This document shows, one piece after another, positions 1 through 21,841 of a stretch of 23,759 nt of DNA. This DNA is from a virus. A program made the translations under genes and the position numbers. The stretch lies in IMG/VR virus record IMGVR_UViG_3300031612_000732, positions 1-23,759 of that record; one strand, 5' to 3'. The notes under the pieces are model-generated. The model was not told the origin of the DNA, searched no databases, and saw only the letters and a program-made list of their open reading frames with translations. Position 1 is the stretch's first letter. Each line of letters starts with the position of its first letter.

Positions 1-408
1 AAGTGCAAGTATCATTGCTAAGTCTTCCACACTATTAGGTAAGTGTTGTTTAACAATGTCGTGGTGTTTGCTAATATGAAACAGTTGGTCAACAATTTCT
101 TTATGCTCAAACAACTCCCACATAGGGTCTGTTGCTAAAAGTTTATCTAAATGCTGTTCACTTTTAACGCCATTGTAAATGTGGTTGTTCAATACATCTA
201 ATTTAAAGTAACCAACTGCTTCTGCTTCTTTGTGGTCTATTGTACTAAAGCCTTTTAACGGAAACATAGGAATAGGTTGCACATACACTCCAGTGTTATG
301 CTTTTCAAATTCTATTCCACGTTTGATACTTGCTGGCGTATGTTGAATAAGTTCTAGTAACTTATCCCTATCAGCCATATCAATGTCTACGTCAAAATCT
401 ATATTCAT
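1..408 (-). CDS. DnaE-like (Pol III alpha) palm/finger fragment, 3' end outside window
   Basis: The first 136 residues are visible; the C-terminus lies beyond the window edge. Residues 4-9 (DFDVDI) followed by [10 protein letters not shown] match the catalytic palm motif of bacterial Pol III alpha (E. coli PDFDVDF...KRDQVIEHV). KHNTGVYV (36-43) matches the KHAGV segment, GYFKLDVL (66-73) the GLVKFDFL motif carrying the third catalytic aspartate, and [11 protein letters not shown] the segment before RPGP. The equivalents of all three catalytic aspartates (D6, D8, D71) are therefore present. The PHP domain is missing and the stretch between the first two motifs is about 28 residues instead of more than 100, so the thumb is essentially deleted. 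Its ATG overlaps the glyA stop codon (ATGA), which indicates translational coupling. Activity is unknown: it may be a relic, a regulator or a minimal enzyme. Homology is recognised from motif order only. Confidence 0.6.
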
Positions 409-1547
409 ATTATTTTAGCTATTGTGTTTGCTAAGTTTACAAACCATTTAGCGTCATGTCCTTTAGTTGTTTCAGCGGCAGTACCTAATCGAATACCACT
501 TGTTTCTGTAAAACTTCTAGGGTCATTTGGTATGCCGTTTTTGTTTACAGTAATACCATTCGCCTCTAACATGTTCGCGGCATCTTTACCACTTACACCT
601 CTATTAGTTAAGTCAAGTAATATTATATGCGAATCTGTGCCGTTTGTCAAGCAGTTAAATCCATTTGCTGTAAGTTGCTTTGCAAATGCCTGAGCATTTA
701 TAACAACATCTTTTGCATACTGACTGAAAGACGGAGTGTTTGCCTCAATAAAACATTGTGCTTTTGCGGCAATTAAATGCATCAACGGACCACCTTGTGT
801 TCCAGGAAAGATTGCACTATTAATACGTTTAGAGTATTCTTCGTTATTCCACAATATAATGCCGCCCCTAGGACCTCGTAATGTCTTGTGTGTAGTTGAC
901 GTAACTATATCTGCATAAGGTAGCGGACTTGGATATGCCTTGCCTGCAACTAGTCCACTGTAGTGTGCCATGTCAACTAATAACAATGCTCCTACTGAAT
1001 CAGCAATAGCTCTAAACCATCCCCAATCAATTTCACGTGGGTATGCACTAGCACCAGCAACAATCATCTTTGGCTTATGACGTTCGGCTAACATTTGAAC
1101 TTCAACATAATCGATGTAACCATCATCGTCAACACCATAATGATATGCTTGGTAAACCTTGCCTGATATATTTGGCTTACTGCCATGGCTTAAATGTCCA
1201 CCACTTGCTAAATCCATGCCAAGTATTGTATCGCCCGGCTTTAAGAATGCTTGGTATACTGCTGTATTGGCATTAGCACCACAATGCGGTTGTACATTAG
1301 CAAAGTTACAACCAAATAACTTCTTAACCTCTTCGATTGCAAGGGTTTCAATTTCGTCCATATGTTCGCAACCGTTATAGTATCGTGCTCCAGGATAACC
1401 TTCTGCATACTTATTAGTAAATACACTTCCGCTTAATTCCATTACTGCATCGCTGGCATAGTTTTCACTTGCTATAAGCTCTATTGTGTTATCTTGACGT
1501 ACTGTTTCTTTATCTAAGATTTCTCTTATTTTTGTATCCATATTCAT
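405..1547 (-). CDS. glyA: Serine hydroxymethyltransferase
   Basis: This PLP enzyme converts serine plus THF to glycine plus 5,10-methylene-THF in the cytoplasm. The family signature is intact: [17 protein letters not shown] contains the PLP-binding lysine. Near the N-terminus are [11 protein letters not shown] and [17 protein letters not shown], which form substrate and PLP contacts in the family. The C-terminal half carries [12 protein letters not shown]. With the chosen start the protein is 380 aa, somewhat shorter than the roughly 415 aa of bacterial GlyA. I place the start at the ATG at 1547 because it overlaps the stop of the upstream 59-aa gene as ATGA; an upstream in-frame start at 1565 would lie inside that gene. 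With thyX just upstream, the likely role is to feed methylene-THF to phage dTMP synthesis. A consensus sigma70-type promoter lies inside the gene (622-650). Confidence 0.95.
622..650 (-). promoter_or_regulatory. Intragenic sigma70-type promoter in glyA
   Basis: On the minus strand TTGACA (650-645), a 17-bp spacer and TATAAT (627-622) give both hexamers exactly at the ideal spacing. It lies inside glyA, about 215 bp upstream of the DnaE-like start, and could give that gene its own early transcript. The hexamers also encode glyA codons, so chance cannot be excluded, but six other promoters in this window share the same form. Confidence 0.55.
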
Positions 1548-1723
1548 AGTCCGATTAAACCCCAACCGTGGTTAGCAATTGCATTAAGTATAATAGCAAC
1601 ACATGTCAACATGTGAGTTAACCACCATACCGTTCTAATTCCTGCTACAGTATTTGCTTGAGTATCTGTTTCGCCGACTTTCTCGCCTAAACTTTTTGCC
1701 CAAACATTCCAATACTTATTCAT
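1544..1723 (-). CDS. Small 59-aa single-pass membrane protein between thyX and glyA
   Basis: This small gene overlaps the thyX stop at its start (ATGA at 1723-1720) and the glyA start at its end (ATGA at 1547-1544), so it is embedded in a translationally coupled trio. The product begins [18 protein letters not shown], is polar for about 27 residues, then has a hydrophobic stretch at about 32-50 ([20 protein letters not shown]) that can span a membrane once. It ends NHGWGLIGL. There is no cleavable signal peptide. I do not recognise a family with a known function, although short proteins of this kind occur in marine T4-like phages. The tight coupling supports a real gene. A short palindrome (cacatgtcaacatgtg) lies within the coding sequence and may be coincidental. 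Confidence 0.8.
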
Positions 1724-2409
1724 ATCTCTTTTCCAGCAAATTCTCCAGCCATTGGGAATACCGTTGCAATAACTTCTGCTACTGCATGTGCTAATTCCAT
1801 ATGTTCTAACTGTGTGCCATTTGATCCACGCAATTCAATATAATGTATCCAGCTACGAAGTGTACCATTCACGTAGAGCCTGCTTAGTGTGTTTCCTTCT
1901 GGAAGTACTGCTCTTGCCTGCTCTTTAGCAATTCCTTTGCTTATAGCCCAATTGTAAGCGTCTAAGGATGCGTCTATAACTCGTTGTTGCTTGTTTTTCC
2001 ATTCGCCTTGGAGTACTGCATGTCCATCCATCTCAGGATCAAGTTCAATACTGTTTTGCCTATTAACAGGATCTTGTAATCTTGCTTGTCTAATCTCAAA
2101 TGCTAAATCTTTTGTAGGGTCTGCGTAACGTTGACTAAACTCTTGGAAACTAAAACTTCTGTGTCTCAATAATTGTCTAGCAATGTCTCTAGTAGTTTCT
2201 ACTTCCATACAAACACTTACCATTTCAAGTGGGCTCCAATGTTTGTGCTTCATTAGATACTTTACTAGCTTGTCATTTGTTTTTGTATTGTCTTGATTTT
2301 CTGGATTACTTACCCTGGCACAATATGCCACTAAGCCTAATAGACTTGAATCTTTATCTAATCCGGATGGGTCTGGTGCTTGACTATAACTAATTATCTT
2401 TGCTTTCAT
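1720..2409 (-). CDS. thyX: Flavin-dependent thymidylate synthase
   Basis: ThyX methylates dUMP to dTMP using methylene-THF and FADH2/NAD(P)H, and yields THF rather than DHF. The ThyX signature RHRX7S is present: RHRSFSFQEFS at residues 82-92, continuing QRY. The downstream region AKEQARAVLPEGNTLSRLYVNGTLRSW matches the family's conserved nucleotide-binding segment. The length of 229 aa is normal for the family. The ATG at 2409 overlaps the stop of the upstream SGNH-like gene (TAATG). The stop overlaps the 59-aa membrane gene, followed by glyA. Because ThyX regenerates THF directly, pairing it with SHMT gives a closed two-enzyme cycle that needs no dihydrofolate reductase. Function is secure from the motif. 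Confidence 0.96.
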   Translation of the reverse strand: MKAKIISYSQAPDPSGLDKDSSLLGLVAYCARVSNPENQDNTKTNDKLVKYLMKHKHWSPLEMVSVCMEVETTRDIARQLLRHRSFSFQEFSQRYADPTKDLAFEIRQARLQDPVNRQNSIELDPEMDGHAVLQGEWKNKQQRVIDASLDAYNWAISKGIAKEQARAVLPEGNTLSRLYVNGTLRSWIHYIELRGSNGTQLEHMELAHAVAEVIATVFPMAGEFAGKEI

Positions 2410-3919: not shown

Positions 3920-4392
3920 TATTTAAATATCTCTTTTATTTCTTTATCCTCAACGCCAGCATCTTTAACATATTGCTTGAGTTCGTCTTTAGTGTTTATA
4001 CTTAATAGTAACTCTAACTCATCATGCTTTAAATGTGGCAGTAATTCTGATATTGCTGTAAACACCTTGTTTTTCTTTTTTCTAGTGTTCGGCGGTTTAA
4101 TGTATTCATGATTTTGTGTTTTGCCACAACCAGCTACAGTAAACAATAGCCATTGTAATTCTGGATGTTTACTAACATCACTAAATCTATTATTAATACA
4201 TTCGTTAACCATATATAAGTAGTCAGCTGACTTTGGGCCTCGAACACAACTAGCATAACGCATCATCATCCAGGCACTAAATGCCTTTTTCTTTTCTGCA
4301 TCAAGCCTAGTATACCATCCTCGATCCTTTACGTCAATCGCTCTCATAACTTCTGATAGTGGTATAGCTGGTGCCTTCTTCTTAGCCGCCAT
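3919..4392 (-). CDS. Putative sliding-clamp loader small subunit (gp62-like)
   Basis: The product is a 157-aa, lysine-rich, helical protein. Its layout resembles T4 gp62, the non-ATPase partner of gp44 that loads the gp45 clamp. It has an N-terminal helical part, a central segment around VNECINNRFSDVSKHPELQWLLFTVAGCG, and a C-terminal run ending in ISELLPHLKHDELELLLSINTKDELKQYV like the gp62 tail, where a run of hydrophobic helices is followed by a final 'ILT' helix. The assignment is by pattern and replication context, not by a diagnostic motif, because gp62 diverges quickly. It overlaps the nucleosidase gene by 11 nt and shares one base with the zinc-finger gene. If not gp62, it is an unassigned T4-like protein. 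Confidence 0.45.
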   Translation of the reverse strand: MAAKKKAPAIPLSEVMRAIDVKDRGWYTRLDAEKKKAFSAWMMMRYASCVRGPKSADYLYMVNECINNRFSDVSKHPELQWLLFTVAGCGKTQNHEYIKPPNTRKKKNKVFTAISELLPHLKHDELELLLSINTKDELKQYVKDAGVEDKEIKEIFK

Positions 4393-4936
4393 GATAATCC
4401 TTGTATGTTTTTATAAAGTGTTCCTCGCCATTAGCAACATTTTCAGCCCATGTAGATCCGGCTTCCTCATCTGCAGTATCGCTGATGTATTTATAACAGT
4501 AAAATTCTACGACTTCATTTTTACAAACTTTTGCAATTGCATAGGCTTCCATTTCAACAATGTCTGTAGGTATTGCCAGTTTAGGATTTATAACAAAATC
4601 ATCTCCAGTACTACAAGAGATGCCTTCACCAATAACAATTGTTCTGCTGTTTGGTTCGAATGGTGTCTCTCCTAGTTCGATACCTAGTTGTGTGCATTTC
4701 ATATCACGTTGTACAACTTTACCAACTTGATGTATGCCGTTATGCAATGTGATTCCTCCAGCAGTACCAAAGTTCCAAACACGTTCAGGCTTGTATCTTT
4801 CTATTAACTTTGCCGCTGTCATACTTGCATTAACTTTACCTACTCCAGTAAAGAAAACGTTTTCCCATGTAGCCATTTCAGGAGCTTCTTGCTCCAATGC
4901 TATTAAAATTATATCTTTGATATTATTCACCTTCAA
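4382..4936 (-). CDS. mtnN: MTA/SAH-type adenosyl nucleosidase
   Basis: The gene encodes a phosphorylase-superfamily nucleosidase that would hydrolyse methylthioadenosine, S-adenosylhomocysteine or 5'-deoxyadenosine to adenine plus the thioribose or ribose. Key E. coli MtnN residues have counterparts: E17 in ALEQE (E12), E130 in VEMEAYAIAKVC (E174) and D153 in ISDTAD (D197). TGVGKVNASMTAAKLIERYKP and NFGTAGG match the ribose-binding core. At 184 aa it is shorter than the roughly 232-aa bacterial enzyme, mostly by loss of outer loops. The start is uncertain: the first in-frame candidates are TTG at 4936 and GTG at 4930, neither with a clear ribosome binding site, and both overlap the end of apt. 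Lying directly after apt, it forms an adenine-salvage pair. Confidence 0.85.
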   Translation of the reverse strand: MKVNNIKDIILIALEQEAPEMATWENVFFTGVGKVNASMTAAKLIERYKPERVWNFGTAGGITLHNGIHQVGKVVQRDMKCTQLGIELGETPFEPNSRTIVIGEGISCSTGDDFVINPKLAIPTDIVEMEAYAIAKVCKNEVVEFYCYKYISDTADEEAGSTWAENVANGEEHFIKTYKDYHGG

Positions 4937-5480
4937 ATTCGATTAGTGTGTTTACGCTGTATCCATGTTGTTTTATTATAGCACTTCCTTTAAGTGTGGG
5001 CAAGTCTATTAGTGCTAAAATTAAAATATTTTCTTTTGGTACAGCAAAATGTTCATGTACAATGTCAGCACACGCTATTGCTGTGCCGCCTGTAGCAATT
5101 AAGTCGTCCATGATTACTACTTTGTCGTGTGGTGCAATGTCTGTACTGCATTGTATGTTTAAACTTGCAGTACCGTATTCTAGTTCGTAGTCTTTCCTAT
5201 ATATCTTACCAGGCAACTTACCAGGCTTACGAGCCATTATAAAAGGCAAGTCTAGATCGCTGGCAATAGGAGCACCAAATACAAACCCTCTACTTTCAAT
5301 GCCAATAAGTTTAGTAGCACCAAAGCCCATTGTTAATGAAGTTAACTCTGATAATGACTTGTTAAATGCTTCGGGGTTTTCTAGCAGGCTTGTAATATCT
5401 CTAAATTCAATACCTGCTTTTGGAAATCCGGAAACTGTTCTAATACTATCTTTTAAATCAATATTATAACTACTCGGCAT
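4923..5480 (-). CDS. apt: Adenine phosphoribosyltransferase
   Basis: Apt converts adenine plus PRPP to AMP and pyrophosphate in the cytoplasm. The PRPP-binding motif is textbook: VVIMDDLIATGGTA at residues 121-134. The other Apt blocks are also present: FPKAGIEFRDIT (19-30), IESRGFVFGAPIA (61-73), ARKPGKLPG (83-91) and YELEYGT (98-104). The length of 185 aa matches bacterial Apt (about 180). Start ATG at 5480; the gene overlaps the preceding acidic-protein gene by 11 nt and the following nucleosidase by 8-14 nt. The enzyme pair should recycle adenine released from SAM by-products into the nucleotide pool during infection, saving purine synthesis. Assignment is secure; the biological benefit is inferred. 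Confidence 0.96.
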   Translation of the reverse strand: MPSSYNIDLKDSIRTVSGFPKAGIEFRDITSLLENPEAFNKSLSELTSLTMGFGATKLIGIESRGFVFGAPIASDLDLPFIMARKPGKLPGKIYRKDYELEYGTASLNIQCSTDIAPHDKVVIMDDLIATGGTAIACADIVHEHFAVPKENILILALIDLPTLKGSAIIKQHGYSVNTLIEFEGE

Positions 5481-6231: not shown

Positions 6232-6735
6232 CTAGTCAATTAACTGACCAATATCTATTTCATGTGGTATTTTATTTGCTTCTTTAACAAACATGACACA
6301 CTTAGGATTGTGACCATCTTCTAGAGGTACAATTAACATGTGTCCATTTTTTAGCTTTGGAAAGAACCACTTCACATCTTGAAAGATATTTGTAATTTTA
6401 ATTTCTTCTGCTGACAACAGTGAGCCGCTTAGTGGATTTAATGCCACTGTTAAAAAGCCTCTATTGTTTAAACTAGTTAATGGAATAACTTCCACGCCAG
6501 TTAAATCTTCATCGGTGATTGCTATACTCCAATCCATCGGCATTTGAATATTGTGTTCACCGATTTGTAAACATATTGCTGGAGCATAAAAACTCTCTAG
6601 GAATATGAGGGGTAGGAAATAGTAATCCATAAATGTCGGATCGGTCGTATCAAACACAGCAAACCGGACATCATCTATCTGATCCGGAACTTGGTCTATT
6701 TCAAATACGGTATTCTCAACTGTTAATATTTTCAT
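6232..6735 (-). CDS. Conserved-type hypothetical protein after uvsW
   Basis: This 167-aa acidic, hydrophobic-strand-rich protein is not recognised. The N-terminus MKILTVENTVFEIDQVPDQIDD and the middle YYFLPLIFLESFYAPAICLQIGEHNIQMPMDWSIAI suggest a beta-rich globular fold. The hydrophobic run contains proline and is short, so I do not call a membrane segment. Its ATG overlaps the uvsW stop (ATGA), so it is translated from the uvsW message. Linkage suggests a role near recombination or late transcription control, but that is only context. A weak promoter-like pair (TTGACA, 15 bp, TATAAA at 6777-6803) lies in the end of uvsW; the spacing is poor. Confidence 0.7.
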   Translation of the reverse strand: MKILTVENTVFEIDQVPDQIDDVRFAVFDTTDPTFMDYYFLPLIFLESFYAPAICLQIGEHNIQMPMDWSIAITDEDLTGVEVIPLTSLNNRGFLTVALNPLSGSLLSAEEIKITNIFQDVKWFFPKLKNGHMLIVPLEDGHNPKCVMFVKEANKIPHEIDIGQLID

Positions 6736-8189
6736 TTATACTCCACTTTGGTAACTTGAAATTTGAAAGATTGCTCTTTATAAAAGGCTTTCCTTTTTGT
6801 CAAATGACGTTTACTATATTTTAAATTACTAGTTACATCGATTACCTGTAAATAGTCCTTGTCTTCTGCTTTACGGATTCCTCTGCCAATACTCTGAATT
6901 ACCCTAACAAAACTCTTGCCTGGTTCTACCATTACAAGATTAAAGATTCTAGGTATGTTAATTCCAACTGCGGCAACTCCGTAAGTTGCTACAATTACTT
7001 TATTATCCATATCGGATACTTCAGCATATTCTTCTTGCCTGTCTTTCACTTTCATTGCACCTGATATAAATGCCCATTCAGGGTTTCTTTCTTTAAACAT
7101 TTCACCTGTTGCAAGTCTATCAATTAGCACTAATGTATTTCCGTTATCGGCTAATCCATTAATAATTGAAGACAAGTGGTCTATACGTTTAGGGTCTGTT
7201 ACTAGCCATTTTAATTCTTGTGCATAACCTGTAAAGCCTTGCACACCGTCTTGCATTTGAAAAATATTAATATCCAGGTCTGCTAGGACGCCTCTGTCTT
7301 GTAACTCTTTACTACTTAAACTTCCAGTAACTGGACCTAAGCAACAAGTACACCCAACTGCTTCGTGTTCATCTTGTGGTATTGTGCCTGTTAATCCCCA
7401 ACGGATTGGAACATTAGCAAACACTCCTCCTAATAGTTTCTGGAGTACATCGGCTTTTGCCTTGTGTACTTCATCTACCATAATACAAACTACTCCATCT
7501 AAGAACTGGTCTATTGGAAAGTCTGCTTCAAACTTCTTACTTTTCTTTTCTAGTACTGCTAAACTCTGCCATGTACAAATAGTATGAGTTTTGTCATACT
7601 GTTTCCTGTCACCAAATAGTACTCCCACATCAAGACCTAAATTCTTATAGTCTCTTTCTGTTTGTACTACTAAGTCCTTATTAGGAACAATAACTATACT
7701 ACGCCCATAAGGTTCACACATATCGCTTAAGGCGGCTGTTATGAGAGTCTTACCGGCTCCTGTAGCCACTTGCTGTAAACTCTGTGGATTCTTTAAAAAG
7801 TTATTAATAACTTCTACTTGATAATCCCTTAGTATTACAGGCGAGCCTTCTGCTGGATGACCTTTGGGCCACATAGTGTTTTCATATCTTAACTCATTTA
7901 TAGGTTCAAATGCAAACTGCCATTTGCTCCTCTGGTCATCTACTTCAACACTATATCCGCAGTCTTGAACTATGGGTAGTAATCTATCCAATAAGTTCAT
8001 ATATGTTCTACCGCCAATATCACAATACCTAACACACCCATCCCACCTGCCAAGTTTATAAGCTGGCATGTGGTAGGCGTAAGGTAAAAAGTATTTTGCC
8101 GCATCAGAAATCTTACGTCTTGTTGCTGGATCTAATCCTGCAAACTTTACGTTAACTTCGTCTCGAATCTCTAGAACACATTTAGGCAT
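6732..8189 (-). CDS. uvsW: UvsW-type DNA helicase (SF2)
   Basis: UvsW is the RecG/RecQ-like SF2 helicase of T4-type phages that reverses forks, branch-migrates recombination intermediates and clears R-loops, ending origin-dependent replication. Motifs appear in order: an N-terminal domain (1-110) that recognises branched DNA in the family, a Q-motif-like RDYQ (121-124), Walker A VATGAGKT (141-148, K147), DEVH box (239-242), motif III GLTGT (265-269), and motif VI QSIGRGIRK (432-440). The length of 485 aa is close to T4 UvsW (about 500). The start ATG at 8189 lies just 5 nt downstream of a consensus -10 box, so the transcript may be leaderless. The next gene overlaps it by 4 nt. Confidence 0.95.
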   Translation of the reverse strand: MPKCVLEIRDEVNVKFAGLDPATRRKISDAAKYFLPYAYHMPAYKLGRWDGCVRYCDIGGRTYMNLLDRLLPIVQDCGYSVEVDDQRSKWQFAFEPINELRYENTMWPKGHPAEGSPVILRDYQVEVINNFLKNPQSLQQVATGAGKTLITAALSDMCEPYGRSIVIVPNKDLVVQTERDYKNLGLDVGVLFGDRKQYDKTHTICTWQSLAVLEKKSKKFEADFPIDQFLDGVVCIMVDEVHKAKADVLQKLLGGVFANVPIRWGLTGTIPQDEHEAVGCTCCLGPVTGSLSSKELQDRGVLADLDINIFQMQDGVQGFTGYAQELKWLVTDPKRIDHLSSIINGLADNGNTLVLIDRLATGEMFKERNPEWAFISGAMKVKDRQEEYAEVSDMDNKVIVATYGVAAVGINIPRIFNLVMVEPGKSFVRVIQSIGRGIRKAEDKDYLQVIDVTSNLKYSKRHLTKRKAFYKEQSFKFQVTKVEYK

Positions 8190-8194
8190 AAGTT

Positions 8195-8224
8195 ATTATA
8201 CTACCAGTTGTACTGAATTGTCAA
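8195..8224 (-). promoter_or_regulatory. Sigma70-type promoter for uvsW inside receptor 3' end
   Basis: On the minus strand TTGACA (8224-8219), an 18-bp spacer and TATAAT (8200-8195) match the consensus. The -35 box and spacer are built from the last codons and stop codon of the TonB-dependent receptor gene. The -10 ends 5 nt before the uvsW ATG, so transcription should start at or within a base or two of the A of the start codon. The sequence TAGTATAAT recurs at three other promoters here. Confidence 0.75.
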
Positions 8225-9868
8225 GTTAAATTCTCTGCCTTTATTATTATAATAAGGAAGAACCTCTGCTTGTTCGTTTGTTAAGTTTAATGCTGTAAAA
8301 GAAATAGTAGTGTTATTAGGAAGTTTTTTTACTGCATAAAAGTTTAGCTTCTTAAGGTCGTCTAAGTATTCTTGTCCAGTTGGAAGTGTATCATACAGAC
8401 CAGGTGTTCTGTCAAATGATCCTACATACCTTACTTTGTATGTAATTTCTTTCCACATCTTTTTATATGTTAGAACTGTAATGTACTGTGCCACTCTTGC
8501 TTTATCAGAATCGTTGTACTTTATCATAACACTTACTGGTCCAAAGTTATTAGAGAATCTAACACCCTGTGTAGAGTAACTGCCTGCATTGTAATACCTT
8601 GCATTGGTCCACACATCAGTACTACTAGCTGGTTCTACCATCTCTATAATATCATCGATTTCGTCAATTGCATTTGCAATAGGCATTATAGTATTAAAGC
8701 CAGGAGTATACTCAATTGATTCTTCAAAGTCATATCTAAATAAACTTAAAGCACCAAAACCAATCTCATAGCCTGTGCCTTCTTCTGGCATTAGCTCATC
8801 ATTAGCATCAACGTAACTGTCGCCGTAAAGCTCGTACAAGTTAGGCTTTCTAAAACTAGTACCTACGTTAAGATAGAACTGGTCTTTAGCTATTCCGAAA
8901 CGCAATGCATTCTGGTCATCGTTGCCATACCTAATTCCAAAGTTGTAGTCTAGAATAAATTGTGCATCAACACTTAGAAACACGCCATAGTTATCATCGC
9001 TATGTTCATTGTATTGTTCTTTGCTACCATCTACACCATATGTTACTTCAAGTAGTGTCGACAAATTTGTAGTGTCGCCTATTCTGAAATAATCTCTACT
9101 GCTTTCGTTTTGATATGTACTTACACCTTCAGTAAAATATTCTGCTTTCTCTTCTGTTCTACCTAGAGTAAAGTATTCGTTCCTTACACTAACTGTAACT
9201 TTTTGACCGTCTTGTAAACAATCGTTTGATTGAGTGAACTCTGGTGTATAACAGTTGTCATAATCGTAAGCATAATCTACTGCATTAACTATAAACTTAA
9301 AGTCGCCGGCGTCTGCTATAATTTTAGCACTCTTGTTTTCGTACTTGTCTGTTTCAGTATTATCATTCCTTGTTTGTTGCTCTACACTAAAGTCTGAATA
9401 CTGGAACCAACTTGTAGGGGCAACACTAATATACTGCTGGTGGTTTGAACCAAGCCTTGCAGTTACACTAGTATCAATAGTGTCTTGAATTAGTACTGTT
9501 CCAGCTATACTGCCTGAGCCGTACATAACTCCGTTTGCACCACTAATAACTTTTACTGTTTCGCCACTAGTAATGTCGTGTCCAAAATCATACCAACCAC
9601 TGCCTGGGTTGTTTGCTGGAACACCATTTTTATATACTACGGTATGTACAGATTGAGCACCACGTTCTCTGAACATTGTACTTGCTCCGTAACCACCTGC
9701 CATCCAAGTCTTATCAGGCATTATTGCCTCGAATAAAGTTGTACTTGTTAACGGACTTGCTTTTGTAGTTTTAACCTCTTGGGCATATACTACTACTTCT
9801 TCTATATTTTCTGCCTGGGCCTGGAATGCGAATAGCATTATGGCGGCAAAAGTAAACATCTTGTTCAT
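8201..9868 (-). CDS. TonB-dependent outer-membrane receptor
   Basis: The product is a 555-aa outer-membrane transporter of the BtuB/Cir type. Residues 1-19 are a signal peptide (hydrophobic core FTFAAIMLFAF, cleavage after AQA). A TonB box, IEEVVVYA, follows at about 22-29. The plug domain (about 35-135) has RERGAQSVHTVVYKNGVP and ETVKVISGANGVMYGSGSIAGTV, the standard plug motifs. The rest is beta-barrel with alternating strands, RKPNLYELYGD, and a terminal aromatic (QYNW) as expected for Bam-dependent insertion. The barrel of about 420 residues is near the minimum for 22 strands. A strong AGGAG site precedes the ATG and a dedicated sigma70-type promoter lies 50 bp upstream. The leader is too short for a cobalamin riboswitch. 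The ligand is unknown. It may be for nutrient uptake or for blocking receptor-dependent superinfection. It is not a tail protein by any feature seen. Confidence 0.93.
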   Translation of the reverse strand: MNKMFTFAAIMLFAFQAQAENIEEVVVYAQEVKTTKASPLTSTTLFEAIMPDKTWMAGGYGASTMFRERGAQSVHTVVYKNGVPANNPGSGWYDFGHDITSGETVKVISGANGVMYGSGSIAGTVLIQDTIDTSVTARLGSNHQQYISVAPTSWFQYSDFSVEQQTRNDNTETDKYENKSAKIIADAGDFKFIVNAVDYAYDYDNCYTPEFTQSNDCLQDGQKVTVSVRNEYFTLGRTEEKAEYFTEGVSTYQNESSRDYFRIGDTTNLSTLLEVTYGVDGSKEQYNEHSDDNYGVFLSVDAQFILDYNFGIRYGNDDQNALRFGIAKDQFYLNVGTSFRKPNLYELYGDSYVDANDELMPEEGTGYEIGFGALSLFRYDFEESIEYTPGFNTIMPIANAIDEIDDIIEMVEPASSTDVWTNARYYNAGSYSTQGVRFSNNFGPVSVMIKYNDSDKARVAQYITVLTYKKMWKEITYKVRYVGSFDRTPGLYDTLPTGQEYLDDLKKLNFYAVKKLPNNTTISFTALNLTNEQAEVLPYYNNKGREFNLTIQYNW

Positions 9869-9917
9869 ACTTCTCCTCTTTTTAAATGTTATTATCTTTG
9901 TCTTTCAACAATAAGTA

Positions 9918-9945
9918 ATTATACACTTTACTGTGTCAAAGTCAA
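9918..9945 (-). promoter_or_regulatory. Sigma70-type promoter for the TonB-dependent receptor
   Basis: On the minus strand TTGACT (9945-9940), 16 bp and TATAAT (9923-9918) form a near-consensus promoter. The predicted start is near 9911, leaving a leader of about 43 nt with AGGAG just before the receptor ATG. A second TTGACA overlaps the spacer (9939-9934) but is only 10 bp from the -10 and is unlikely to be used. Confidence 0.75.
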
Positions 9946-9976: not shown

Positions 9977-10001
9977 GAAGCCCGGAGGGGATCCGGGCTT
10001 C
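9977..10001 (-). terminator. Strong hairpin, probable terminator of the ATPase gene
   Basis: A perfect 9-bp GC-rich stem (GAAGCCCGG / CCGGGCTTC) encloses a 7-nt loop. On the minus strand it lies about 65 nt after the ATPase stop codon and is followed by ACCTTTTGTG, a short imperfect T-run. It separates the ATPase unit from the receptor promoter. No T-run follows on the plus strand, so minus-strand use is favoured. Confidence 0.7.
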
Positions 10002-10065: not shown

Positions 10066-11115
10066 TTAAATTGTTCCTTTCATACAAGTAGTTCTTGCAA
10101 GTTTTTCCCAATTAGCAGGATCCATTTTTCTAAGATCCGATATCTTCAAAACCATTCTCAAACTTATCTCTCTAAGAGCTTCTTGGTTAGTGGTCATAAA
10201 GTTAATAATTTCTTTATCACCTTCTACACCAAACTTGTATTCTTCAAGCATACCATCTTTAACAATCTGGTTAATCCTGAGGAACTTATCTCTTATAGAG
10301 TTCATTGTAAGATCCAAGTAGTGACATCTTGACATAAGTGCCGCTAAGTGATCCTTAATCTTTTTAGAACGAACGTTTTCAAAGTCTACGTTAGTAATAA
10401 AGATACAACCACCTTTGAATTCAAATCTATCTGGAATACCTTCTCTACGAAGTGCTTGTGATTCTGACTTCCAAGTAATAGTTCTTTTCTTACCTGAGTC
10501 CAAAGTTGCTTTAAGCATATTCAAACATACTTCATCAAACAACACACTATCACAGTCATCAAATACAAGTATGTTACCTGCTTCTGAATTGTTATATAGT
10601 GTTTGGAATAAACCAATTGGAGTAACCGAACCTTTTACTACTTCAGTTCTTGCAGGCTTGCCAGCAACCTCAGTAAGCATATCGTAATCTTCTAGCACAG
10701 TTTCTACACCATAAGATTTACCAACACCTGGAGGACCACTAACAATCATACCACGTACTGTACCTTCTGCTACAGCATGAGTCATTCTATCAAGAATATC
10801 AAAACGTTCTCTGATACGCTCAATTGCTTCTTCGTCATTTTCTTCTTTCTTAGGCTTCAGATCAATTTTTGGTTGCTCTGCATAAACACTAGGAGTTACA
10901 TATTCTAGATCCTGTGTTGGATCTTCTATAAGTACTCTTATACTAGCGAACTGGTCTCCCATTACTTCACTACCGTTTACTGTAATGAACGCACCTTTCT
11001 TACCTATGTTAAGTGGCTTAATAATTGGAAATACTGTATCAACGATTTCGTTTTTACGGTAAGTACCAGCCTTAATCTTTACATAGTTTAGTTTGTTTTT
11101 CTTCATTGTTGTCAT
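10066..11115 (-). CDS. AAA+ ATPase of unknown phage role
   Basis: About 349 residues from the ATG at 11115; in-frame ATGs at 11106, 11124 and 11133 and a TTG at 11151 are alternatives. I prefer 11115 because GGGGA lies 8 nt upstream as a ribosome site. Numbering from the longest form (TTG, 361 aa): Walker A GPPGVGKS at 139-146, Walker B ILVFDDCD at 194-201, sensor-1-like FITN at 251-254 and a candidate arginine finger in LMSRC (R275). The N-terminal 100 residues are a separate beta-rich domain, then an acidic linker. The fold resembles MoxR/CbbQ-type or other single-AAA remodelling ATPases, but the partner is unknown. It stands alone between two tandem consensus promoters and a terminator, so it is expected to be strongly expressed early. 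It may remodel a replication or host complex; that is inference. Confidence 0.8.
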   Translation of the reverse strand: MTTMKKNKLNYVKIKAGTYRKNEIVDTVFPIIKPLNIGKKGAFITVNGSEVMGDQFASIRVLIEDPTQDLEYVTPSVYAEQPKIDLKPKKEENDEEAIERIRERFDILDRMTHAVAEGTVRGMIVSGPPGVGKSYGVETVLEDYDMLTEVAGKPARTEVVKGSVTPIGLFQTLYNNSEAGNILVFDDCDSVLFDEVCLNMLKATLDSGKKRTITWKSESQALRREGIPDRFEFKGGCIFITNVDFENVRSKKIKDHLAALMSRCHYLDLTMNSIRDKFLRINQIVKDGMLEEYKFGVEGDKEIINFMTTNQEALREISLRMVLKISDLRKMDPANWEKLARTTCMKGTI

Positions 11116-11174
11116 ATTAGTCATCCCCGACATTATGATTATTGTTAACAAGCCCTTCTTATTAACTTATGTAT

Positions 11175-11203
11175 ATTATACTAAATTCTAGGACCAATGT
11201 CAA
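11175..11203 (-). promoter_or_regulatory. Sigma70-type promoter P2 for the ATPase
   Basis: On the minus strand TTGACA (11203-11198), 17 bp and TATAAT (11180-11175) are exact consensus. It is preceded by GGTAAAAGG, the same block as at the second promoter 86 bp upstream, and the spacer ends in TAG just before TATAAT. Predicted leader to the ATG at 11115 is about 53 nt. Confidence 0.88.
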
Positions 11204-11260
11204 CCTTTTACCGTTTTTATTGGCTTTTTCTTCCTTTCCTTTATTGTCTAATAAGTATAT

Positions 11261-11289
11261 ATTATACTACCTTTTAGGGGTGATGTCAA
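11261..11289 (-). promoter_or_regulatory. Sigma70-type promoter P1 for the ATPase
   Basis: On the minus strand TTGACA (11289-11284), 17 bp and TATAAT (11266-11261) are exact consensus. GGTAAAAGGTTGACAT is identical to the P2 upstream block. The two promoters are 86 bp apart in tandem, both reading toward the ATPase. Confidence 0.85.
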
Positions 11290-12118: not shown

Positions 12119-12580
12119 TTATACATTTAATTTCTTAAAGTAATTATCATACAACCGCTTTTCCCAACGATATGCTTCTCTCTCCCAGGGTTGATGGCTG
12201 TAAGGAACTTTAGCACGATTTACTTCTTGTTGTTTCCACATGTTCATATTAGGGGTTATCTCTCCCATTATAAACTGTTTTGCATGGATTAATTCGTGTG
12301 TTAAATTAGTTAGCATTTTTTCACGTGAGTATGTATGTTCGTTTGACGTTCTAGCTATTTCTATTTCAACTGTTGATCTATCGCCCCAACAATAACCGCC
12401 GGCTTGTTCATCGCAAACGGTTAATATATTGATTGTAATTTCTATTGGGCGTCTTAATTTTGTAGGTATAATATTCTCGAGTAATAGTTCACTGACTCGT
12501 TCTATTAATTGTTTGTTTCTGATTTGTCCTATAACTTGGACTTGGATCATATCCTGGTTCCTACATCCAGCATCTTGCAT
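12119..12580 (-). CDS. HExxH zinc-metallopeptidase-like protein
   Basis: The product is up to 153 aa; an internal ATG at 12550 (residue 11) has a better ribosome site (AGGA upstream), so the mature start may be there. The centre carries LTHELIHAKQFI (H95-E96-x2-H99), a zincin signature, and HQPWEREAYRWE at 129-140 probably supplies the third metal ligand (E134 or E136) as in gluzincin-like proteins. No signal peptide is present, so it would act in the cytoplasm or in virions. SprT-like domains and other small zincins are known in phages, but its substrate is unknown. It lies between a UvsY-like gene and an early promoter, in the recombination run. Confidence 0.7.
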   Translation of the reverse strand: MQDAGCRNQDMIQVQVIGQIRNKQLIERVSELLLENIIPTKLRRPIEITINILTVCDEQAGGYCWGDRSTVEIEIARTSNEHTYSREKMLTNLTHELIHAKQFIMGEITPNMNMWKQQEVNRAKVPYSHQPWEREAYRWEKRLYDNYFKKLNV

Positions 12581-16884: not shown

Positions 16885-17661
16885 CTACTTGTATTTATCT
16901 TTTATCGAGTTTAAGTATTGATAATCGTTTTTATAAATTTCTTTAATCATGTCTCTAACACCAGGATCTATTGTTTCATCTGTAACTATAACATTTCTTT
17001 CCATAGAGTATCGTGTTTCATGATCCCATGCATGATCTATTCCTAATTTACGATTAAAGTACTCTGAATCACCTATTTTGTTAAAGTCTAGTAGTACTAA
17101 GTTAACACCAGTGTCTTCCCAACTTGGTATTATATCACTGTATTTGTTCTGTGCATACATTAATTTATCAGGTGTTTCTATTTTTCTAGTTGCATGTTGC
17201 TGTACTTTACGTTTAAGTATATCAACACCTTCTGGTGTATTAAAGTATTCTGCTTCTCTATCAAATACATTACCCATTTGGGTCTTGGCATGTGTCCACC
17301 AACTAGTATGATTAATCGTACTAATCCAAGTTTCGTATGGATCTCTAATCCATAAATAAACAGTTAAATCAAAACGTTCGTCTAATTCTTTAATTACACT
17401 TATACTTCGCTGTGGTTGATACCACCCCAACGAAAAGTCCATCCAAGGTTTTTCAGATTGTTCTATAGTAGTGTAGTATTCACTTAATGATTTTTCAAAA
17501 GGCTTGCCTTTATATAGTAATGGAAAATCGGGGAATGGTTTTTCACACCATATGTATGTTTCTTTTAAATCGTACGAGTTATAGTTATTTTTTAAGTTTT
17601 CCCAAAGCCATGTGGTGCCTGTTCGGGCTGGACCAACACACAACAGTAGTTCCGTGGACAT
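16885..17661 (-). CDS. Sulfotransferase family protein
   Basis: This 258-aa protein has the two PAPS-binding signatures of sulfotransferases: the 5'-phosphosulfate loop GPARTGTTWLW (10-20), and the 3'-phosphate motif RDPYETWIS (106-114) after a hydrophobic strand LTVYLWI. Trp-rich segments and YMERN-like C-terminal sequence fit the family. It would transfer sulfate from PAPS to a hydroxyl or amine on a glycan, lipid or small molecule; the acceptor is unknown. It is embedded between gp17 and a probable virion protein, sharing one base with the gp17 stop (TAATG), so it is expressed late. This could mean modification of virion or cell-surface glycans. The late promoter for the next gene lies within its last codons. 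Confidence 0.85.
   Translation of the reverse strand: MSTELLLCVGPARTGTTWLWENLKNNYNSYDLKETYIWCEKPFPDFPLLYKGKPFEKSLSEYYTTIEQSEKPWMDFSLGWYQPQRSISVIKELDERFDLTVYLWIRDPYETWISTINHTSWWTHAKTQMGNVFDREAEYFNTPEGVDILKRKVQQHATRKIETPDKLMYAQNKYSDIIPSWEDTGVNLVLLDFNKIGDSEYFNRKLGIDHAWDHETRYSMERNVIVTDETIDPGVRDMIKEIYKNDYQYLNSIKDKYK
16892..16899 (-). promoter_or_regulatory. T4-type late promoter for the 427-aa virion gene
   Basis: GATAAATA followed by C lies within the last codons of the sulfotransferase gene, 19 nt before the next ATG, with AGGAG in between. It matches the NATAAATA pattern of the other late boxes in the window. Confidence 0.6.
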
Positions 17662-21247: not shown

Positions 21248-21841
21248 CTATTTACCTACTTTTATATCTATATCTAAAAAATTTGATAACGAATTACTTA
21301 ATTGTTGCGGGTTTGTACTGTCTATTTTTAATTTTGTATATTGTATATGCGAATCATTAAAAATTTGTAAAAAGGATTCTTGTGGTTGAATATGTTCGTC
21401 CCACTCTGTGGGTACTTTTAATAATTCATGTAATGGTAAAATTTGTCTATTAGTTCTTTGTGCAAAATTTAACCAACTAGGATCATATCCTGATGCTAAT
21501 CTTTGATTTATATCACGTGTATTACAAAACCATGTTGCTTGTTGAATATGCTTAGGTGTAAAAAATTGGTCTCGGCCATTGATTGCCGAAGGGGTAGTGC
21601 CAGTGTGAAAAATAATTCTCTCTAAGGTAGAGACCTCGGCTTGGGTATCAAATAGTTTAACTTCTGGATGTTCTGCAATAGCATGTTCAGTGTCTTGTGA
21701 GGCACATTTTGGTATATTTATAAAACAAAAAAGTTTGTTTTTTATAAAAAATGGCTTGAATTGTCCGTATTGATGAGAAAAATGTTTCGGAGTATTGTGA
21801 TTGCAATCCAATACTTCACTAAGATATTTGCTTTGTATCAT
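21248..21841 (-). CDS. Divergent sulfotransferase-like protein
   Basis: This 197-aa protein has FCFINIPKCASQDTEHAI (38-55), the phosphosulfate-binding loop form IPKxAS found in the sulfotransferase-2-like group, and CNTRDINQRLASGY (106-119), matching the RxxxxRxxS 3'-phosphate motif. It is shorter than typical members, and the acceptor region is much reduced. It starts with ATGA overlapping the gp4 stop and is followed by the gp16-like gene after 4 nt. Its sequence is not closely similar to the other sulfotransferase at 16885-17661, so the pair is not a recent duplication. Activity and acceptor are unknown. Confidence 0.65.
   Translation of the reverse strand: MIQSKYLSEVLDCNHNTPKHFSHQYGQFKPFFIKNKLFCFINIPKCASQDTEHAIAEHPEVKLFDTQAEVSTLERIIFHTGTTPSAINGRDQFFTPKHIQQATWFCNTRDINQRLASGYDPSWLNFAQRTNRQILPLHELLKVPTEWDEHIQPQESFLQIFNDSHIQYTKLKIDSTNPQQLSNSLSNFLDIDIKVGK

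Follow-up and report, generated by a model that had tools for sequence, protein, structure and literature searches.

A widespread phage-borne family of predicted BtuB-like TonB-dependent transporters with a corrinoid as candidate ligand

TonB-dependent transporters (TBDTs) and proteins that act on them have been described in several phages. The marine megaphage Mar_Mega_1 encodes a SusC-like TonB-dependent receptor to which its authors ascribe a role in uptake; it resembles the protein analysed here in being a phage-encoded TBDT but is of the SusC type, and no claim is made there that such genes form a widespread family with a constant genomic position (PMC9723777). A gene of the pelagiphage Skadi is annotated as a TonB-dependent receptor and lies between the tail-tube and capsid genes of a podophage, a position that according to its authors points to an adsorption receptor (PMC10504331); this too is a marine phage gene annotated as a TBDT, but its setting and the reading given to it differ from those of the present gene. 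Cor (phi80, N15) is a phage exclusion protein that disables FhuA (PMC11436027), and a PDB entry for FhuA with Llp (T5) was among the rows of our structure comparison. Both Cor and Llp act on the outer-membrane TonB receptor system as inhibitors, whereas the protein described here is a complete receptor. In BFVD, the sole strong full-length viral fold match was A0A8D9FQQ5, a SusC of an uncultured marine phage (805 aa, 11% identity), and the PHROG family phrog_5687 (760-position profile) matched our family in plug residues alone. The best profile and fold match was BtuB (E. coli, Bacteroides), with which the phage protein has a plug and a 22-strand barrel in common; it differs from BtuB in being phage-encoded, in its identity of about 20% and in an invariant Cys pair in loop L3. 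No description of a BtuB-like phage receptor family was found in the openly accessible literature. Phage TBDTs have thus already been reported (Mar_Mega_1, Skadi), and the present family is a different, widespread, BtuB-like one.

The window, by which is meant the whole stretch of DNA that was analysed, comprises 23,759 nucleotides (IMG/VR record IMGVR_UViG_3300031612_000732, positions 1 to 23,759). The receptor gene and its immediate neighbours within it are:

8201..9868, minus strand: TonB-dependent transporter gene, 555 aa (open reading frame with ATG start and TAG stop; Plug match; fold; family alignment)
6732..8189, minus strand: uvsW-type helicase gene, downstream neighbour (phrog_16)
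10066..11151, minus strand: AAA ATPase gene, upstream neighbour (phrog_1250 and AAA models)

T4-type genes found in the window were uvsW, the AAA ATPase, uvsX, gp32 and terL; a preliminary description of this DNA had placed the receptor gene amid T4-type replication genes, with which these neighbours agree. The annotated terminases nearest to terL were those of jumbo phages (e.g. PA5oct, 57.6%), and the source, a large uncultured T4-like phage, is probably a jumbo phage, as far as can be judged from terL.

The predicted protein was divided into the following parts:

9812..9868, minus strand: putative signal peptide, residues 1-19, cleavage after AQA (assigned by eye; Ala-X-Ala position kept in relatives)
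9779..9811, minus strand: TonB box, residues 20-30, ENIEEVVVYAQ (family conservation)
9479..9778, minus strand: plug domain, residues 31-130 (Pfam PF07715 at 54-124; the most conserved part of the protein)
8204..9469, minus strand: predicted 22-strand barrel, residues 134-555 (AlphaFold2 model, DSSP strand count, BtuB match)

The window protein matched the Pfam Plug model PF07715 at 30 bits (cut-off 23.9), and the match was present in diverged members as well. An N-terminal hydrophobic stretch followed by an AQA/EN site, with the AXA pattern conserved in relatives, was recognized by eye. The core of the TonB box, EEVVVYA, occupies residues 23-29, and the family alignment gave the consensus IEEVxVxAQ; boxes of the IEEVVVxAQ type presumably resemble proteobacterial ones. 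A C-terminal aromatic residue serves outer-membrane assembly, and the last residue is Trp in the window protein and in nearly all relatives. The signal peptide (by eye), TonB box, plug and terminal aromatic residue listed in the preliminary description were therefore all recovered, and all are conserved across the family. The Pfam barrel model PF00593 gave no match to the window protein at E 0.001, although such a match is not essential for TBDT membership, and a single-sequence phmmer search of the PDB found no TBDT; the barrel consequently had to be demonstrated by structure. AlphaFold2 supplied with 50 diverse relatives produced a model with pLDDT 82 and pTM 0.81 in which 22 barrel strands were counted from DSSP, whereas a run with only 20 close homologues gave pLDDT 30 and an unusable model. 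Sequence and predicted fold together confirm the predicted product of 8201-9868 as an intact TBDT. The family contains two receptor size classes, each found in both of the genomic contexts described below; the longer receptors (about 660 aa; L066-L103) carry about 65 extra residues near window-protein residues 286-292 and more in loop L8.

To place the family among known transporters, profile, alignment and structure comparisons were used. In a search of all PDB sequences the family profile hit BtuB exclusively (six sequences, best E 4.7e-10), hhalign aligned the family with E. coli BtuB over 464 columns with a probability of 97.9%, and E. coli BtuB occupied ranks 1-9 in Foldseek. VIA-align Z scores were 37.7 for BtuB:TonB, about 33 for Bacteroides BtuB, 31.5 for ChuA and 30.8 for FhuA, in rankings that may favour BtuB because it is a small TBDT. 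Profiles, hhalign and structure comparison all place the predicted receptor nearest BtuB, and the structure prediction and search proposed in the preliminary description thus returned a complete predicted TBDT with BtuB as its nearest solved relative. Of the two ligand classes suggested there, iron and cobalamin, the second is favoured by this proximity and the first is the less likely; iron-siderophore transporters score below BtuB in VIA-align. The best NCBIfam match of the window protein was TonB-B12 (residues 57-554), at 35.7 bits, far below the equivalog cut-off of 599.7 and too low for the protein to be classed as BtuB; in the plug region, diverged members show a weak preference for heme-type NCBIfam models. 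A SusC-type TBDT was considered and rejected: the SusC N-terminal extension domain was not found (Pfam, E 10), no SusD-like gene was present among the neighbours scanned, and the closest fold is that of BtuB.

The candidate ligand site lies in two outer loops:

9206..9376, minus strand: loops L2-L3, residues 165-221, with invariant acidic residues and Cys206/Cys217, at the position of the BtuB cobalamin/calcium loops (conservation, alignment, PMC7360065)

Averaged over the family, conservation was 0.63 in the outer loops and 0.64 in the barrel strands; L2, L3, L6, L7 and L9-L11 exceeded average conservation, and L1 and L8 were variable. Residues D169, N170, E172, D174, D202 and D204 and the Cys pair 206/217 were essentially invariant. 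At the BtuB residues that we take to be the calcium-cage positions, the phage family seems to have acidic counterparts at three of five and none at the other two, in an alignment of very low identity. In BtuB this cage consists of five aspartates near the cobalamin site, and Y229-D230 of loop L3 contact cobalamin in simulations (PMC7360065). MAFFT aligned Y203-D204 of the phage protein with this BtuB pair, which puts the invariant Tyr-Asp of the phage family at the counterpart of BtuB loop L3. Loop conservation also bears on superinfection exclusion, a plausible function and the main rival, but one to which we assign a rather low probability, in which the receptor would compete for TonB or serve as a decoy or substitute that blocks TBDT-using phages or bacteriocins. 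Phages often use TBDTs as receptors, and some phage proteins disable them, as Cor does with FhuA (PMC11436027). Known exclusion proteins are, however, small inhibitors, a decoy would need no conserved plug or TonB box (competition for TonB would), and the outer loops are conserved and not diversified, except for L1 and L8.

Expression signals around the gene were read from the sequence as follows:

9873..9877, minus strand: ribosome binding site AGGAG (read from sequence)
9918..9945, minus strand: sigma-70-type promoter of the receptor, TTGACT-16-TATAAT, 11/12 (kept in diverged relatives)
9977..10001, minus strand: intrinsic terminator with a 10-pair stem, closing the upstream AAA gene (similar hairpins in relatives)
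8195..8224, minus strand: uvsW promoter TTGACA-18-TATAAT, within the receptor 3' end and stop (perfect sigma-70-type boxes)

As a class, promoter-like sites in this region exceeded the chance expectation only slightly (14 against 10.9). A promoter and ribosome site belonging to the receptor gene itself had been claimed earlier, and the 11/12 promoter, kept in relatives, and the AGGAG bear this out. An "early" class is plausible for the receptor promoter; being host-type, this promoter would permit early expression, a point in favour of exclusion. Two more perfect (12/12) promoter-like sites precede the AAA ATPase gene at window positions 11175-11289 on the minus strand. The uvsW promoter consists of the Leu-Thr codons TTG ACA followed by TAGTATAAT, which spans the receptor stop. 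Of the distinct receptor 3' ends, 21 of the 28 that belong to the AAA/uvsW context have both of its boxes, against none of the 10 that belong to the baseplate context (see below), and this context-specific placement within the receptor 3' end indicates that the receptor gene is fitted to its site. One receptor in the baseplate context (L066), nested among receptors of the other type in the tree, retains the TTGACA codons, possibly as a trace of its origin.

Searches of IMG/VR yielded 29 loci with close relatives and 79 with an alignment query, and with a plug-only query at least 289 contigs were found to encode relatives (80 kept). Almost every complete copy, over an identity range of 39-100%, has an intact reading frame, the receptor of L091 being shortened at its end, and dN/dS between close pairs of receptor genes was 0.08-0.3, which denotes purifying selection. 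A tblastn search of 50,697 annotated phage records, a collection that may not include Skadi, with the window and L085 proteins returned no relative. Cellular relatives were not confirmed in two pattern scans of 84,980 prokaryote genomes, in which distant ones could be missed because the patterns were phage-biased, and tblastn against plasmid records gave weak matches alone, mainly in the plug. Related phages were also inspected for the gene between the AAA ATPase and uvsW, as had been suggested, and many carry the receptor there. Some relatives keep an empty site instead: in L135 and L141 about 118 bases, containing a terminator and a promoter, separate the AAA gene from the uvsW gene behind it, and L155 and L159 are likewise without the receptor at the AAA/uvsW junction. 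The receptor gene is therefore accessory. It was present in 10 of 14 close-group loci (p12585 at least 75% identical) having both p12585 and uvsW, a sample drawn by query from receptor-bearing relatives, so that this ratio does not represent a population frequency.

Absence from these four close relatives would suit a host gene that is passively carried along, or an artefact of assembly, in either case of no function for the phage. We consider this extremely improbable in view of the number of contigs with relatives, the intact frames over so wide a range of identity, the low dN/dS, the uvsW promoter fitted into the receptor 3' end, and GC and GC3 values similar to those of the adjoining phage genes. 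The chimeric assembly that the preliminary description had raised as a concern is contradicted by the recurrence of the same junctions in dozens of contigs from different metagenomes. Its reading of the gene as a working-type outer-membrane transporter is supported, in that every structural claim held up.

Relatives of the receptor gene were found in two genomic contexts. Most loci share the gene order of the window (uvsX ... AAA ATPase, receptor, uvsW); in a few (L143, L335, L345, L353, L356) the receptor lies upstream of the AAA gene. In the second context, comprising about 24 contigs, the receptor is encoded on the strand opposite baseplate genes and immediately follows a nucleosidase gene (PNP/MTA-SAH nucleosidase superfamily), an arrangement found throughout that context. 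Baseplate-context contigs share 49-60 genes with one another, whereas in a comparison with one AAA/uvsW-context contig the receptor alone was common at more than 50% identity. No contig examined carries both contexts, and the AAA/uvsW type also occurs in 9 of the 25 metagenomes that yielded baseplate-context contigs. A maximum-likelihood tree of the receptors requires no fewer than four switches of context, so that the receptor gene must have undergone repeated movement or recombination. Among otherwise similar receptors of both contexts, two or three signal peptides that look unrelated are swapped (e.g. L033, L036, L044, L059), which suggests recombination at the 5' end.

Genes for nucleotide and one-carbon metabolism lie further down the strand that encodes the receptor:

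4382..4936, minus strand: nucleosidase gene, PNP/MTA-SAH superfamily, with a homologue that directly adjoins the receptor gene in the baseplate context (PF01048, NCBIfam, synteny)
4923..5480, minus strand: adenine phosphoribosyltransferase (APRT) gene (NCBIfam NF002636, over cut-off)
1720..2409, minus strand: ThyX, FAD-dependent thymidylate synthase gene (TIGR02170)
405..1565, minus strand: serine hydroxymethyltransferase gene, GlyA (NF000586)

The association with metabolic genes argues against exclusion. From these data we infer a course of expression, export, TonB coupling, ligand import and benefit. During infection the receptor gene would be driven by its own sigma-70-type promoter, the Sec and BAM systems of the host would deliver the protein to the outer membrane, and host TonB would power the import of a scarce ligand into the infected cell; a corrinoid (vitamin B12 family) is the most probable one. 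One-carbon and nucleotide metabolism would be the likely beneficiary, as GlyA, ThyX, the nucleosidase and APRT are encoded in the same cluster and on the same strand; cobalamin may keep host MetH running and so return folate to the pool used by GlyA and ThyX, a chain that rests on established biochemistry. A nutrient importer fits the conserved pocket, the TonB box, the plug, the promoter of its own and the nucleotide-supply neighbours. We regard as evenly balanced the proposition that the protein is a phage-specific BtuB-like TBDT that imports most probably a corrinoid into the infected cell, and a corrinoid is our best-supported guess at the ligand.

Several observations were counted against a corrinoid: the low TonB-B12 score, the lean of diverged members to heme-type models, the small size of BtuB, the partial calcium cage, the riboswitch result and the Nrd genes. 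For the latter two, no Rfam match to a cobalamin riboswitch was found in the window, although riboswitch control of BtuB is usual and not universal, and in one relative two adjacent genes correspond in size and order to NrdA and NrdB, so that the phage has no obvious B12-dependent reductase of its own. An importer of the same type with another ligand (nucleoside, heme, metal chelate or other) would accord with the weak heme-type plug matches of diverged members, and appears to us rather unlikely overall. In its nucleoside variant, a nucleoside-containing ligand would be imported and cleaved by the nucleosidase, and adenine would then be salvaged by APRT; the constant position of the nucleosidase gene immediately before the receptor in the second context, and the overlap of the nucleosidase and APRT genes in the window, speak for this. 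We know of no TBDT for nucleosides, however, and sequence and fold evidence favours BtuB over other TBDTs. Phage C48C1 (L285, OQ984149; Kyanoviridae) encodes at 7487-8546 a nucleosidase, 59% identical, and an APRT-like gene, which are annotated as hypothetical, lie behind ribonucleotide reductase and are without the receptor; the pair can therefore serve another purpose.

Taken more broadly, and as a tentative possibility, the receptors may form a mobile, phage-exclusive family that serves large T4-like phages as a dedicated import module for a corrinoid or adenosyl-containing ligand, coupled to the nucleosidase; these phages would then be viruses controlling host vitamin uptake. The viral metabolic genes known so far mostly act within the cell, and a working outer-membrane transporter, if this is what the gene encodes, would change host uptake. 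The data suggest a phage that keeps or improves scarce-cofactor import by the cell that it is killing. Large parts of the ocean are poor in vitamin B12, and viral control of its uptake, if true, would link phage infection to vitamin cycling. Because the receptor family is widespread, conserved and sharply defined, the question is testable with a single cloned gene, and unannotated viral protein families such as phrog_5687, through its plug match, are given a meaning.

Three further genes of the window were recorded. Two encode sulfotransferase-like proteins, one at 16885-17661 with a weak match to a PHROG sulfotransferase (E 0.0012) and one at 21248-21841 with a PKCAS motif resembling a PAPS-binding loop; the third, at 12119-12580, encodes a small protein with an HELIH zincin motif and a weak NCBIfam match (E 0.0016).
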